Positions 2,949-55,206 of a stretch of DNA of 64,000 nt are shown in pieces. This DNA comes from Halobacteriales archaeon QH_7_66_36 (lineage in GTDB: Archaea > Halobacteriota > Halobacteria > Halobacteriales > Haloarculaceae), in assembly GCA_003021175.1 (NCBI GenBank), contig PXQV01000001.1, forward strand, positions 1,869 to 65,868. Reading direction: 5' to 3'. The notes under the pieces are model-generated. The model saw nothing but the letters and a program-made list of their open reading frames with translations, had not been told where the DNA came from and did no database searches. A program made the translations under genes and the position numbers. Every line of letters begins with the position of its first letter. The first letter of the stretch is position 1.

Positions 2949-3469
2949 CCGAGGCAAACGACCATCCAGCACCGCGCGCCGACCCGCCCGGAGCGAGCGG
3001 CCAGCGGGATATGCCCGCTCGTGTCCGGCCCGATGTGCGGGACCGTGTCCAGGGCGACTGTCGCCGAGAACGCGCGCCGCGGTGTGGCGCGCGACAGCGC
3101 AGGCGGCACAAAGCGCTGGAACGCGAAAGCCCGCAAGGGGCGCAACCGACGGGGATACCCGCTGGCGCCGAGGGCACATGCATTTTAGCCCGGAACGGGC
3201 GCGGGCGGTGCGGAGAGCGCCCGCACGCCCGGAATGGTCGGTCGCGAGCGATGCGGAGGGCGGCAGCGGCGAGCGGGGCGGGCCGTTCGGTCGTCCCCCG
3301 ACTCCGCAAGCACCGAGGGACGAGGCGCGCAGCGTGGCGCGGGATGCCGAGCGGCCGAGGGCTTTCATCGTATTGCCCACCCAACAGTCTTACTCGAAGC
3401 CAACGCGTCACGTTGCGAGATAGCGAAGTTATTTATAAATCGATTCGTGTCTCGGCAGCAGACCAGTGT

Positions 3470-7611: not shown

Positions 7612-7718
7612 CGGCGTTAACGAGACGCCTGCGTCTCGTTCGCATCTTGGAAATCTCCGATTTCCAATGGTCGGCGAATCGGCGATTCGCCTCGACACCA
7701 GAACGCGACGCGTTCTGG
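7612..7718. repeat. Hairpin array A (four tandem short hairpins)
   Basis: AACGAGACGC-CT-GCGTCTCGTT (7619-7640); TTGGAAATC-TCC-GATTTCCAA (7647-7667); GGCGAATC-GGC-GATTCGCC (7673-7691); CCAGAACGC-GAC-GCGTTCTGG (7698-7718). Confidence 0.9.
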
Positions 7719-22089: not shown

Positions 22090-22953
22090 AGTGAAGAACG
22101 AGCGTGTGAACTGTTGTATGACACTCTCGTACTGGTTCGTGTCATGAGTCTTGCCTCTTGGAGATTAGTCAATCGGCGCGAAAGCGTCGTCTTGCTCGCG
22201 GTCGGCAGCTGGTCTTCGATTACGACTCGCTCACCTCCAGTCGCCACGTCGTGCTCTTCGAGCGACCCGACCGCCGTGCCGTCGGTGTCGTGAGCGTATT
22301 TGAGAATCCCCACGTCGATGCCGACACACTTCTCGGGGTCCTCAGACGGGTCGGGCGGTTCGCGGTCCATTTCGACGCCGAACGTGGCGAACCACTCGCC
22401 TGTCGGCCCCTTCTTGACCGTCACCTGCTTCACGGTGGCGTCGTCGGGGATGGCGCGGTGGAGCCGAATCGGGATGTCCGCAAGTTTCGAGAGGGACAGG
22501 ACAGTCTGACCGCCCTTCTTGTCGAGCTTGAAGCCATCGCCAGAAATCGCAGATTTCTGGCTGCCAACCAGAAGCCGTCGGCTTCTGGTGACCGGACTGA
22601 CTGTAGGTGTAGGTGAAACTGCGGAACTCCCGTGGCGGCTTCCAGTTGAGTTGACCGACACCGTAGCCGTTCTCCTTGAGCGCGGAGAGGCCGTTGAGGT
22701 TGTCGAACAGACGCTCTACGACGGTTTGGAGAACCTTCGAGTACACGTCCGAGAGGTCATCCCACCACGTTTTGAGGTCAGGTAGCTCCGACCGTAGCGC
22801 GGTCATCGACGGCAGTTCGCCGTGTTCGTCTTGGTACTCGTTGAGGCGATAGAGCGTGTGGTTGTACAGTTGCCGACAAATATCGCGGTGGCGGTCCAAC
22901 TCCTCGCGATGGGCGTCGGACGGCTCGAGGCGGTACTTGTAGGCGTAGTACAT
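22090..22953 (-). pseudogene. IS200/IS605 TnpB-like protein #1: frame-disrupted and 3'-truncated
   Basis: MYYAYKYRLEPSDAHREELDRHRDICRQLYNHTLYRLNEY... continues after a 58-nt interruption as FKLDKKGGQTVLSLSKLADIPI...CVGIDVGILKYAHDTDG; RuvC-II/III and zinc finger missing. Confidence 0.8.
22534..22591. repeat. 58-nt two-hairpin insertion (cluster B) inside tnpB #1
   Basis: CCAGAAATC-GCA-GATTTCTGG (22540-22560) and CCAGAAGCC-GTC-GGCTTCTGG (22568-22588); 58 nt is not a multiple of 3. Confidence 0.85.
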
Positions 22954-23166: not shown

Positions 23167-23443
23167 CGGCGTTGACGAGGCGCTTCGCGTCTCGTTCGCA
23201 CACCAGAAATCTGCGATTTCTGGGGACGTCCTCAGAAACACGGCGCGTTTCTGATGGGCTGCACAAGAGCTTCGCTCTTGTGAACGCTGTATCCCCGCCC
23301 TACTGCGCTCCTTGTCCGCTGGCGCGGACTGCGGTGTCGTCCGAAAATCAGAGATTTTCGGGATCACGAGACGGCTTCGCCGTCTCGAACGACTACGCGC
23401 CTCGCTCGTTGAGGGTGGGTTTTGATGTGGACTCCCGGCAATC
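23167..23443 (-). ncRNA. Candidate omega/reRNA-like 3' region of tnpB #2 containing hairpin array C
   Basis: Directly 3' of tnpB #2 stop; holds seven hairpins including 23175-23195, 23203-23223, 23232-23254, 23262-23282, 23314-23329, 23341-23361, 23367-23387. RNA nature inferred from known tnpB 3' guide RNAs, not shown here. Confidence 0.4.
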
Positions 23444-34662: not shown

Positions 34663-34680
34663 CCGCGTCGACAACGGGCG

Positions 34681-34800
34681 GTGTTCAGATACGCGGGTCG
34701 TCGCTCGATTGAACAACCGCGGTGGGTGGGACTGAAAGGGGCCGGGGGCTTTCTACACCCTGTTGTCCTCCTGATCTCCGAACTTACGCTTGTCTAAACC
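34681..34800. repeat. Conserved noncoding element E1
   Basis: Shares GTGTTCAGAT...CGTCGCTCGAyTGArCAACCGC...GGGACTGAAAGGGGCCGG...GGGGCTTTCTACACC with 53627-53878; degenerate terminal inverted repeat. Confidence 0.8.
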
Positions 34801-34847
34801 CGACGCCGGGTAGACGCGCTTTTACATCCCGAGGTCGGAGCGAAGGT

Positions 34848-35378
34848 ATGGCGGAGCCACGGGTGCCGGGCGGGCGCGGCGAGGTGTTGGAGCTGCCGTG
34901 CGGCGAGGAGAAGCCGGTGTACGAACTCGACATGGGGATGCGCGGCTTCGACTGCGACTGTGGCGAGCGACACGCCGTCGTGGTCGACGTGCATCCGCTC
35001 TCGCGGTTCGTGCCGGAGTTCCTCGTCGACACGCTGCGGGCGGCCGTCGACACGACGACGGAAGGCGAGTTCTCGACGACGCACCTGATGGGTGTCGTGC
35101 TGGAGGAGTTCCCCGAGCGCGTGGTGTCGGCGGACGTGAGCGACGACGGCGAGGTCGGCTACGCGATGGTGTGGGCGACGGACTTCGACTCGCGTCGCCT
35201 CCACGAGACGGCCGTCGAACTGCTCGTGGAACTGATGGAGCACGCGGTGAGTCACGCCGACGACGAGAGCGCCGTCTCGGCGTTCGAAGAGCAGATGCTC
35301 GAGTTCGACGTGACGGCGTTCGTCGAACAGTACCGCCGCGAGCGGAACTTTCAGAGCGAACACGACTCGGCGGTGTGA
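34848..35378 (+). CDS. Conserved haloarchaeal hypothetical protein (DUF5815-like)
   Basis: MAEPRVPGGRGEVLELPCGEEKPVYELDMGMRGFDCDCGERHAVVVDVHPLSRFVPEFLVDTLR. Confidence 0.75.
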   Translation: MAEPRVPGGRGEVLELPCGEEKPVYELDMGMRGFDCDCGERHAVVVDVHPLSRFVPEFLVDTLRAAVDTTTEGEFSTTHLMGVVLEEFPERVVSADVSDDGEVGYAMVWATDFDSRRLHETAVELLVELMEHAVSHADDESAVSAFEEQMLEFDVTAFVEQYRRERNFQSEHDSAV

Positions 35379-52919: not shown

Positions 52920-53570
52920 TCACGCCTCGTAGGAGAGCACGACGCCGTCGTCGAGCCGCTCCACGTCTCGCAGGTCCAGTTCCGGAAACCCCTCGACGAA
53001 CCCCTCGCCGTCGGCCAGCGTCGGCGCGTCGCGCCCGCCGATGATCATCGACCCGACGAACAGCGTCAGTTCGTCCACCAGACTGTCGGCAAACAGCGAG
53101 AAGATGAGTTCACCGCCCCCTTCGACCATCAGCCGTTCTACCCCGCGAGCGCCGAGTGCGTCGAGTGCGGCCGGGAGCGCGACTCGCTCCTCGCCCGCCT
53201 CGATGGGTTCTGCGCCCGCCGCGGCGAGCGCGTCGACTCGCTCCGTCGGCGCGCCGTTAGTTACCAGCACGTACGTCGTCGCCGGCCCATTCAGTATGTC
53301 GGCGTCGGGCGGCGTCCGGGCGCGGGAGTCGGCGACGATCCGTGCCGGGAATCCCTCCTTGTCGAGTTCGCGGCGACGGTGCTCGTCGTGGCGCAGCAGC
53401 GAGGGGTCGTCGGCGAGGACGGTGCCGACGCCGACCGCGACGGCGTCCGACTCTGCGCGGATGCGCTCCATCCGGGCGAAGTCCGCCGACCCCGAGATCT
53501 CCACCTGCTCGCGACGGCGCGTAGAGAGTTTGCCGTCGACCGAGACGGCCGCATTCACGTGGACGTGCAT
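52920..53570 (-). CDS. 2,5-diamino-6-(ribosylamino)pyrimidinone 5'-phosphate reductase
   Basis: HVNAAVSVDGKLSTRRREQVEISGSADFARMERIRAESDAVAVGVGTVLADDPSL. Confidence 0.9.
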   Translation of the reverse strand: MHVHVNAAVSVDGKLSTRRREQVEISGSADFARMERIRAESDAVAVGVGTVLADDPSLLRHDEHRRRELDKEGFPARIVADSRARTPPDADILNGPATTYVLVTNGAPTERVDALAAAGAEPIEAGEERVALPAALDALGARGVERLMVEGGGELIFSLFADSLVDELTLFVGSMIIGGRDAPTLADGEGFVEGFPELDLRDVERLDDGVVLSYEA

Positions 53571-53626
53571 ACCGGTGCTGGTCGCGGCGCGCGGTTAGCG
53601 GTTTCGTCGTACCCTCGTGAACGGCG

Positions 53627-53878
53627 GTGTTCAGATGAGCGGAGCGTCGCTCGACTGAGCAACCGCTCAGGGCGGGACTGAAAGGGGCCGGACGCTACGG
53701 GAAGCACGACGATGCAAGCCGCGAGGCGACGCAGTCGCCTCGGCCCGCTCGCGCGGCACCGCCGCGCGAGGACACCGCAGCCCGACCGACGGGAGGGCAA
53801 GGCGCGCGACCGTAGCGTCCGGGGGCTTTCTACACCTCGTTGGCCTCATAGTCCCCGGAGTCACTCTCATCTGAACAC
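53627..53878. mobile_element. Conserved noncoding element E2 (MITE-like), with internal structured insertion
   Basis: Perfect 13-bp terminal inverted repeat GTGTTCAGATGAG...CTCATCTGAACAC; core shared with E1; 127-nt block 53692-53818 bounded by ACGCTACGG...CCGTAGCGT and flanked by CCGG on both sides. Confidence 0.7.
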
Positions 53879-53931
53879 TACCGCGTGAACGGGCGATACA
53901 TCCTTGGGGAGTGGGGGCGAACCGACGGCTG

Positions 53932-55206
53932 ATGGATCTCGAAGCCGAAGCCGAGGAACTCGCCTCCGCCCTCGGCGCAAACAAAGAGGAGGTCTTGGAA
54001 GACTTAGAGAAGCTGGTCAGCTACTCCGTCCCGCTGGACGAGGCGAAGGGGTCGCTCCGCCGGAAGTACGGCGACAGCGACGCCTCCGGCGGCGACGAAC
54101 CGACGACCAAGGATATCGCCGACGTGGCGACCGACGACGCGAACGTCACCGTCACCGGGCGCGTGCTCACCGTCGGTAAACGGTCGATCCGCTATCAGGG
54201 GGAGGATCAGGTCATCTTCGAGGGCGAACTCGCCGACGGGACGGGCCGGATATCCTACACCGCGTGGCAGGATTTCGACCTCTCGGTCGGCGACGCGATA
54301 ACCGCGGGCAACGCCGGCGTCAGGGAGTGGGAGGGCTCGCCCGAACTCAACCTCGGCCAGTCCACGACGCTCGTGTTCGAGGACGAGCAGCCCGACGTCG
54401 AGTACGAGGTCGGCGGCGACCGGGCGCTCGACGAGCTGTCCCCCGGCGACCGCGGGCGGAACGTCGTGGTTCGCGTGCTGGAGTGCGAGCGGAAGACCAT
54501 CGACGGTCGCGACGGCGAAACCGAGATCCTGAGCGGCGTGCTCGGCGACGACACGGGCCGGCTCCCGTTCACGGACTGGGACCCGCACGCCGAGATCGAG
54601 GAGGGGGCGAGCGTCCGCATCGAGAACGTCTCGATACGCGAGTTCCGCGGCGTCCCGTCGGTGAACGTCTCGGAGTTCTCCTCGGTCATCGGACTCGGGG
54701 AGGACGTGACGGTGAGCGAGGACGCGCCGGAGATGGGTATCGACGAAGCCGTCACGTCCGGCGGTGCGTACGACGTTCGGCTGGTCGGCAACATCATCGA
54801 GGTGCGCGACGGCTCCGGGCTCATCGAGCGGTGTCCGGAGTGTGGCCGCGTCGTCCAGAACGGGCAGTGTCGCTCGCACGGTGAGGTCGACGCCGAGGAC
54901 GACCTCCGCGTGAAGGCGATCCTCGACGACGGCACCGGGACCGTCACGGCCATCCTCGGGCACGACCTCACCGCGGAGGTGTACGGCGGCGGCATCGAGG
55001 ACGCGAAGGAGCACGCCCGCGACGCGATGGACAAGTCGGTCGTCGCCGACGACATCCGCGAGAAACTCGTCGGCAAGGAGTACCGCGTGCGCGGCCAGCT
55101 CTCCGTCGACGAGTACGGCGCGAACCTCGACGCGACCGAGTTCGCCGGGAGCGACGACGACCCGGGCGAGCGTGCCCGTGACGCGCTCGCGGAGGTGCGC
55201 GCATGA
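53932..55206 (+). CDS. Replication protein A-like ssDNA-binding protein
   Basis: Multiple OB folds and zinc finger CPECGRVVQNGQCRSH. Confidence 0.93.
   Translation: MDLEAEAEELASALGANKEEVLEDLEKLVSYSVPLDEAKGSLRRKYGDSDASGGDEPTTKDIADVATDDANVTVTGRVLTVGKRSIRYQGEDQVIFEGELADGTGRISYTAWQDFDLSVGDAITAGNAGVREWEGSPELNLGQSTTLVFEDEQPDVEYEVGGDRALDELSPGDRGRNVVVRVLECERKTIDGRDGETEILSGVLGDDTGRLPFTDWDPHAEIEEGASVRIENVSIREFRGVPSVNVSEFSSVIGLGEDVTVSEDAPEMGIDEAVTSGGAYDVRLVGNIIEVRDGSGLIERCPECGRVVQNGQCRSHGEVDAEDDLRVKAILDDGTGTVTAILGHDLTAEVYGGGIEDAKEHARDAMDKSVVADDIREKLVGKEYRVRGQLSVDEYGANLDATEFAGSDDDPGERARDALAEVRA

Follow-up and report, generated by a model that had tools for sequence, protein, structure and literature searches.

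The window analysed here, a 64,000-nucleotide stretch of haloarchaeal DNA, contains two copies, E1 and E2, of a repeat which, in all likelihood, is a non-autonomous IS6 MITE that carries a hairpin as its cargo, is placed upstream of BRE/TATA elements, and has lost its core in E1. The account rests on terminal inverted repeats (TIRs), target duplications (TSDs), covariation, distribution, orthologous presence and absence, and a fixed distance to start codons, all as read from sequence. A transposase acting in trans on GGYRGTGTTCAG ends would have inserted E2 immediately before the BRE/TATA box of the gene that follows, making an 8-bp target duplication. The element carries as its cargo a segmented hairpin whose conservation extends across the haloarchaea; this hairpin is also found outside the MITE, frequently in head-to-head pairs. 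Small modules, made of hairpins with 3-nt loops, would be gained or lost in the hairpin's internal loops, and its upper part would sometimes be lost at the stem base, so that GAAAGGGGCCGGGGGCTTTC remains (E1), whilst copies at fixed sites appear to swap arms and cores through recombination. The relevant features of the window are as follows:

53623–53882, + strand: E2, whole element, IS6-type MITE, 260 bp, with tips GGCGGTGTTCAG (left) and CTGAACACTACC (right) and a TSD
53615–53622: E2 target duplication, left copy TCGTGAAC, 7/8 identical to the right copy
53883–53890: E2 target duplication, right copy GCGTGAAC, 8 bp
53674–53830, + strand: segmented core hairpin of E2 (model R1), 157 nt, 60.6 bits, E = 6e-10
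53680–53684 with 53826–53830, + strand: basal helix GAAAG/CTTTC, 100% of cells paired
53688–53700, + strand: 13-bp stem, 5′ arm CCGGACGCTACGG, holding the left CCGG and the 9-bp TIR
53810–53822, + strand: 13-bp stem, 3′ arm CCGTAGCGTCCGG, holding the right CCGG
53719–53772, + strand: 54-nt double-hairpin module, located in a core internal loop and bordered by GCAAG and CACCGCAG
53883–53931, + strand: promoter region of the downstream gene, from the fixed-distance statistics
53895–53902: likely TATA element GATACATC, assigned by eye
34677–34805, + strand: E1, short form, 129 bp, with the core reduced to GGGACTGAAAGGGGCCGGGGGCTTTC at 34728–34753
3265–3366, + strand: divergent third core copy, 42.6 bits, E = 2e-6, no recognised IS6 tips

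Searches with E1 and E2 placed both in one dispersed family with ~100 copies in the genome from which the window comes (the home genome), where the 11-mer GAAAGGGGCCG, with at most 1 mismatch, occurs 166 times, compared with 44 for the reversed control. Family elements are 126–503 bp long. We retrieved 82 full home-genome copies for analysis, most of which have an inner domain of 85–380 nt; eight, E1 included, are short. In related genomes, the element is absent at the E2 and E1 sites.

The segmented hairpin and its short forms

A first-pass annotation had described a 127-nt insert within E2. Read directly from the sequence, this segment is indeed found at 53692–53818, with a 9-bp terminal inverted repeat (ACGCTACGG at 53692–53700 and CCGTAGCGT at 53810–53818), CCGG on either side (53688–53691 and 53819–53822), and two exact hairpins, CGAGGCGAC-GCA-GTCGCCTCG (53722–53742) and CTCGCGCGGC-ACC-GCCGCGCGAG (53748–53770). 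E1, at 34728–34753, is a short form without the 127 nt. The layout of 53674–53830 is GAAAG-GGG-CCGG-[127 nt]-CCGG-GGG-CTTTC, in which GAAAG (53680–53684) and GGG (53685–53687) precede the left CCGG and GGGCTTTC (53823–53830) follows the right one.

These features had been taken to mean that a short repeat E, already in place, had been entered at CCGG by a structured element, with duplication of this 4-bp target, in keeping with CCGG-insert-CCGG in E2 and a single CCGG in E1. That part of the annotation fails on the flanks. We compared the letters beside GGGG and GGGCTTTC in the 74 long home-genome copies, that is, those with the inner domain, and found that beyond the self-complementary CCGG the flanks agree in inverted rather than direct orientation (0.79 versus 0.33 agreement at 5 nt). 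CCGG resembles a direct duplication because it is self-complementary, whereas members with another base have inverted-complement flanks, seen as the base pairs CCGT/ACGG and CCGC/GCGG, which excludes a direct target duplication. CCGG was therefore ruled out as a duplicated target; a continuous stem has it at its base.

An alignment of 44 compact cores from the home genome and other genera comprises 33 pairs in five helices, with 96.0% of cells paired and double changes at 24 pairs (230 cells); none of 500 shuffles was as high, and slid registers were 28–50% paired. Above the GAAAG/CTTTC helix lie a conserved GGG/GGG loop and, beyond it, the 13-bp stem, 12 of whose 13 pairs have compensatory changes in the family, and the basal helix co-varies to GGAAG/CTTCC in two members. 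That base helix and stem co-vary across genera as a single structure argues further against entry at CCGG. E2 is matched by a covariance model made from its relatives (E = 6e-10); its core reaches 157 nt because of the extra module, and its right arm lacks 12 nt found in compact relatives.

The covariance model matched 130 of 151 haloarchaeal genomes, representing 50 of 58 genera, with between 1 and at least 31 core copies per genome. In a 120-genome sample of the phylum there were 17 genomes with a match, every one inside the order, and the core was not found in any of the searched genomes outside it. Matches in annotated plasmids lie almost always outside genes, and the Haloferax volcanii plasmid pHV4 has a copy. 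Nothing in the window matched Rfam at the gathering score, and the best score of a typical core was 3.2 bits. A tRNA or known RNA family was ruled out by the lack of a match, as was a phage or viral origin, with no match among phage records or viral contigs. The function of this hairpin, which occurs in six of seven haloarchaeal genomes and is not in Rfam, is testable in H. volcanii.

The survey of the family showed the long form to be the usual one (115 of 129 copies in the home genome and its sister G001, a draft metagenome assembly). The 14 short copies are scattered, and at least 12 changes are needed to explain them on a poorly resolved arm tree. At the E1 site, the sister has the element with a core of ~77 nt, and the right base of this ortholog, CCGGCCCCTTTC, matches its left base exactly in reverse complement, which we take as a trace of arm-to-arm copying. 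At the orthologous pair L193/L057, the sister is short, the home genome is long, and the right arm is different; since this difference runs the opposite way, single events cannot be polarised. Given that the E1 ortholog keeps its core and that short forms are scattered, loss fits better than insertion, and we infer core loss as the better reading of the origin of short forms such as E1, with its direction unsettled in single cases. The converse scenario named by the annotation itself, in which the long form is ancestral and E1 arose by deletion, is therefore close to what was found. Insertion of the 127 nt into a pre-existing E would suit the L193/L057 pair, but both the commonness of the long form and the core in E1's ortholog speak against it; we regard it as largely refuted already and as very improbable.

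The arms and core of orthologous copies often differ far more than the flanks, which we read as exchange between dispersed copies, such that arms and cores appear to have been exchanged by recombination among copies at fixed sites. In a comparison of G001 L142/L161 with window 53200–54300, the sister's E2 ortholog keeps the left half; its core and right arm are different, and so is the gene downstream, which resembles cobalamin adenosyltransferase. This may reflect recombination between copies, or misassembly. At L049 (G001 L200), the element is present in the sister and absent in the home genome, where a few tip-like bases remain, as if it had been excised rather than never inserted.

IS6 ends and placement before promoters

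An 8-bp TSD matching at 6 or more of 8 positions was found in 30 of 74 copies, compared with 1.24 in shuffles (largest 4), and at offset 0 only; E2 has the 7/8 identical pair TCGTGAAC/GCGTGAAC, and the duplication has gone from many copies. The tips of the family are those of autonomous haloarchaeal IS6 elements (PF13610, IS6/IS240), which have ends GGTA and GGCG and are nearly all 692–698 bp in length. GGTAGTGTTCAGAT and GGCGGTGTTCAGAT are borne by PF13610 elements, one of them in a congener, and a 697-bp haloarchaeal IS6 element has ends GGTAGTGTTCAG. An exact 8-bp TSD flanks 27 of 33 autonomous elements, which had been chosen for a duplication of at least 5/8. Based on the IS6 tips and the 8-bp TSD, we assign E2 to the IS6-type MITEs, with which it has in common the shared terminal inverted repeats, the 8-bp TSD, and the lack of a transposase gene; it would have been moved in trans by a transposase of the IS6 family. 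The home genome (96.7% complete) gave no match to a PF13610 transposase, so that present mobility there is unsupported; a congener has one. A second type of element, with a GGAAG/CTTCC base helix and tips like GTGTTTAATTAAG, is present at home loci L050, L053, L062, L119, and L137, and its tips resemble those of a second IS6 clade (L323, L330: GGTAGTGTTTAGTTTGG).

With start codons and promoter elements as predicted from sequence, an ATG lies 46–50 nt past the right edge at 35 of 73 home flanks (2.8 expected, P = 3e-26). The sister genome has an ATG at that distance at 14 of 36 (1.2 expected, P = 5e-11), a count that includes some loci orthologous to home copies, and a weak peak is also seen at the left edge (12 versus 3.3). 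For E2, the ATG is at 53932–53934, 49 nt past the right edge, and E1 is followed by an ATG at 34848. The right flank has its AT maximum at +20–23 and a consensus of Cgcaa, then TTaa, with BRE/TATA spacing. Autonomous IS6 elements of other genera share the ATG peak, at 47–49 nt on either side, and the fixed distance therefore seems to be a property of the transposase. Its occurrence in the home genome, in the sister, and in autonomous elements points to IS6 transposition that is targeted to promoters. A fixed distance as a general property of the core was ruled out, since in other genera the distance taken from the end of the hairpin shows only a broad bump at 85–100 nt. In tandem gene pairs, 26 MITEs are on the same strand versus 9 on the opposite one (P = 0.006), and autonomous elements show no orientation bias (8 left, 7 right).

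An insertion that hits a gene or a core promoter is expected to do harm, and the fixed distance could reflect selection instead of targeting, with other promoter or gene insertions being lethal and only one spot tolerated or useful. The orientation bias of the MITEs, which autonomous elements do not show, is in line with selection. However, tolerance predicts a one-sided edge, whereas the observed peak is a few nt wide with background on both sides, and the autonomous elements of other genera have their peak there too. We consider selection an unlikely explanation.

If transposition is targeted, the transposase would read the promoter complex, with TBP/TFB as the guide suggested by the position of the insertions. 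The chances seem to us about even that a TBP/TFB complex steers haloarchaeal IS6 transposases just upstream of BRE/TATA, as a prokaryotic counterpart of Ty3 targeting, and that a class-wide hairpin not in Rfam thereby stands before ~100 genes, whose expression it may affect. The yeast retrotransposons Ty3 and Ty1 are inserted at a fixed position beside promoters, and are retroelements guided by the Pol III machinery. The promoter-side position would be common to both systems, although the elements described here have a DDE transposase and reside in an archaeon. Promoter-steered transposition would offer a simple system in which to study the recognition of a transcription complex by a DDE transposase, a question known mainly from eukaryotic retrotransposons. 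In the open-access literature we found no relevant report of promoter targeting by archaeal IS elements, which is weak evidence.

Mispairs in the core include 69 G.T versus 15 A.C (P = 2e-9), or 37 versus 13 without the three richest pairs, an excess that points to one of the two strands as the one that matters, in the form of RNA or single-stranded DNA, barring strand-biased mutation. The hairpin may function in either form. It could be a cis-acting signal of use to the host, in RNA or DNA, with a role, for example, in RNA processing, termination, or activation, and could have been picked up and spread by IS6 ends, given that the core is kept in 130 of 151 genomes, that one strand matters, and that it lies close to gene starts with an orientation bias. 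Yet it is missing from about one in seven genomes, its copy number varies widely, orthologous copies are strongly different and have been gained or lost, and the G.T excess could come from strand-biased mutation; we therefore think a host signal somewhat improbable.

Among known systems, the parts of an IS6 family review (PMC7986276) that were searched mention two MITEs of this family, 227 bp and 336 bp long. As in the E2 family, haloarchaeal members of the IS6/IS26 family have terminal repeats and an 8-bp TSD, and the MITEs are too short to encode a transposase (PMC7986276). The E2 family differs in its ~100 copies, its conserved hairpin cargo, and its fixed pre-promoter place, which are absent from the searched text. 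The bacterial Correia/NEMIS, ERIC, and RUP elements, as described in the portion of PMC2229807 consulted, are also MITEs of 100–200 bp whose transcripts fold into long stem-loops, and Correia elements also exist in an extended form that contains 50 bp of internal sequence. Their ends and hosts are different, and the same portion of text contains no fixed start-codon distance.

Nested modules and cores outside the MITE

The link that the annotation had drawn between the hairpins and insertion survives in part. The double hairpin is a nested unit, whilst the 127 nt around it were not inserted at CCGG. In 11 of 11 home copies that have it, the 54-nt module (53719–53772) lies between GCAAG and CACCGCAG, and the orthologs L005 and L229 differ cleanly in having or lacking it, their flanks being identical and any duplication limited to 1 base. 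Entry is into an internal loop of the core, not at CCGG. The stems of the module hairpins are conserved and their 3-nt loops are hypervariable. Loops on one module stem are often mutual reverse complements (GGC/GCC, GGA/TCC, TGC/GCA); they look as if flipped. The modules form a readable record of DNA hairpin gain, loss, and exchange.

As first described, the hairpins at 7.6 and 22.5–23.4 kb have the same 3-nt-loop geometry as those in E2, and the window has 16 hairpins with a 3-nt loop and a stem of 8 bp or longer, versus 2 expected under a first-order Markov model. Perfect hairpins of the module geometry occur in runs at 7619–7718, 22539–22589, and 23203–23387; by eye, those at 22.5–23.4 kb flank an apparent IS1341/TnpB-type gene region.

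Cores in other genera are arranged head-to-head in pairs, whose ends differ from those of the MITE (GGGGCTTTCGAGGTG, GGGGCTTTCTGGCTGTTC) and which show no fixed distance. Such inverted pairs, as in REP/BIME, are also present in a few home copies, and are probably the form that gave the IS6 MITE its cargo. According to the part of PMC2817692 that was searched, REP/BIME are high-copy palindromes in alternating orientation, resembling the head-to-head cores of other genera, but the core is ~110 nt long and has conserved internal loops. In Haloquadratum walsbyi, SMR-A makes no target duplication and hits IS605-type elements, and PATEs are without terminal inverted repeats (PMC3119063). Both, like the E2 family, are short, nested elements of haloarchaea whose insertion sites lie inside palindromes, with core deletions between repeats leading to terminal-only forms, and E2 is set apart from SMR-A by its 8-bp TSD and from PATEs by its TIRs.

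It is possible, if doubtful, that the core moves by itself as a hairpin, in a REP/BIME-like or SMR-like manner, and that the IS6 ends are one host of several. Head-to-head pairs with other ends and no fixed distance would agree with this, as would the G014 pair L167, which is absent at the same junction in G034, where the flanks are too diverged for a duplication to be read. Against it, neither a TSD nor an empty site is resolved at base level for the pairs, and no transposase has been linked to them. For locus L173, no empty site was found in four other genomes of its genus, in which synteny is not conserved. Pairs with GGGGCTTTCGAGGTG or GGGGCTTTCTGGCTGTTC ends were seen at home loci L104 and L129, at L164–L167 of G014, and at L172 and L173 of G010. 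At L166 and L169 of G014, one hairpin is missing: GGGACT[GAAAG...GGGG]CTTTCGAGGT is replaced by GGGACTTTCGAGGT, and a CT repeat borders this loss (or insertion).
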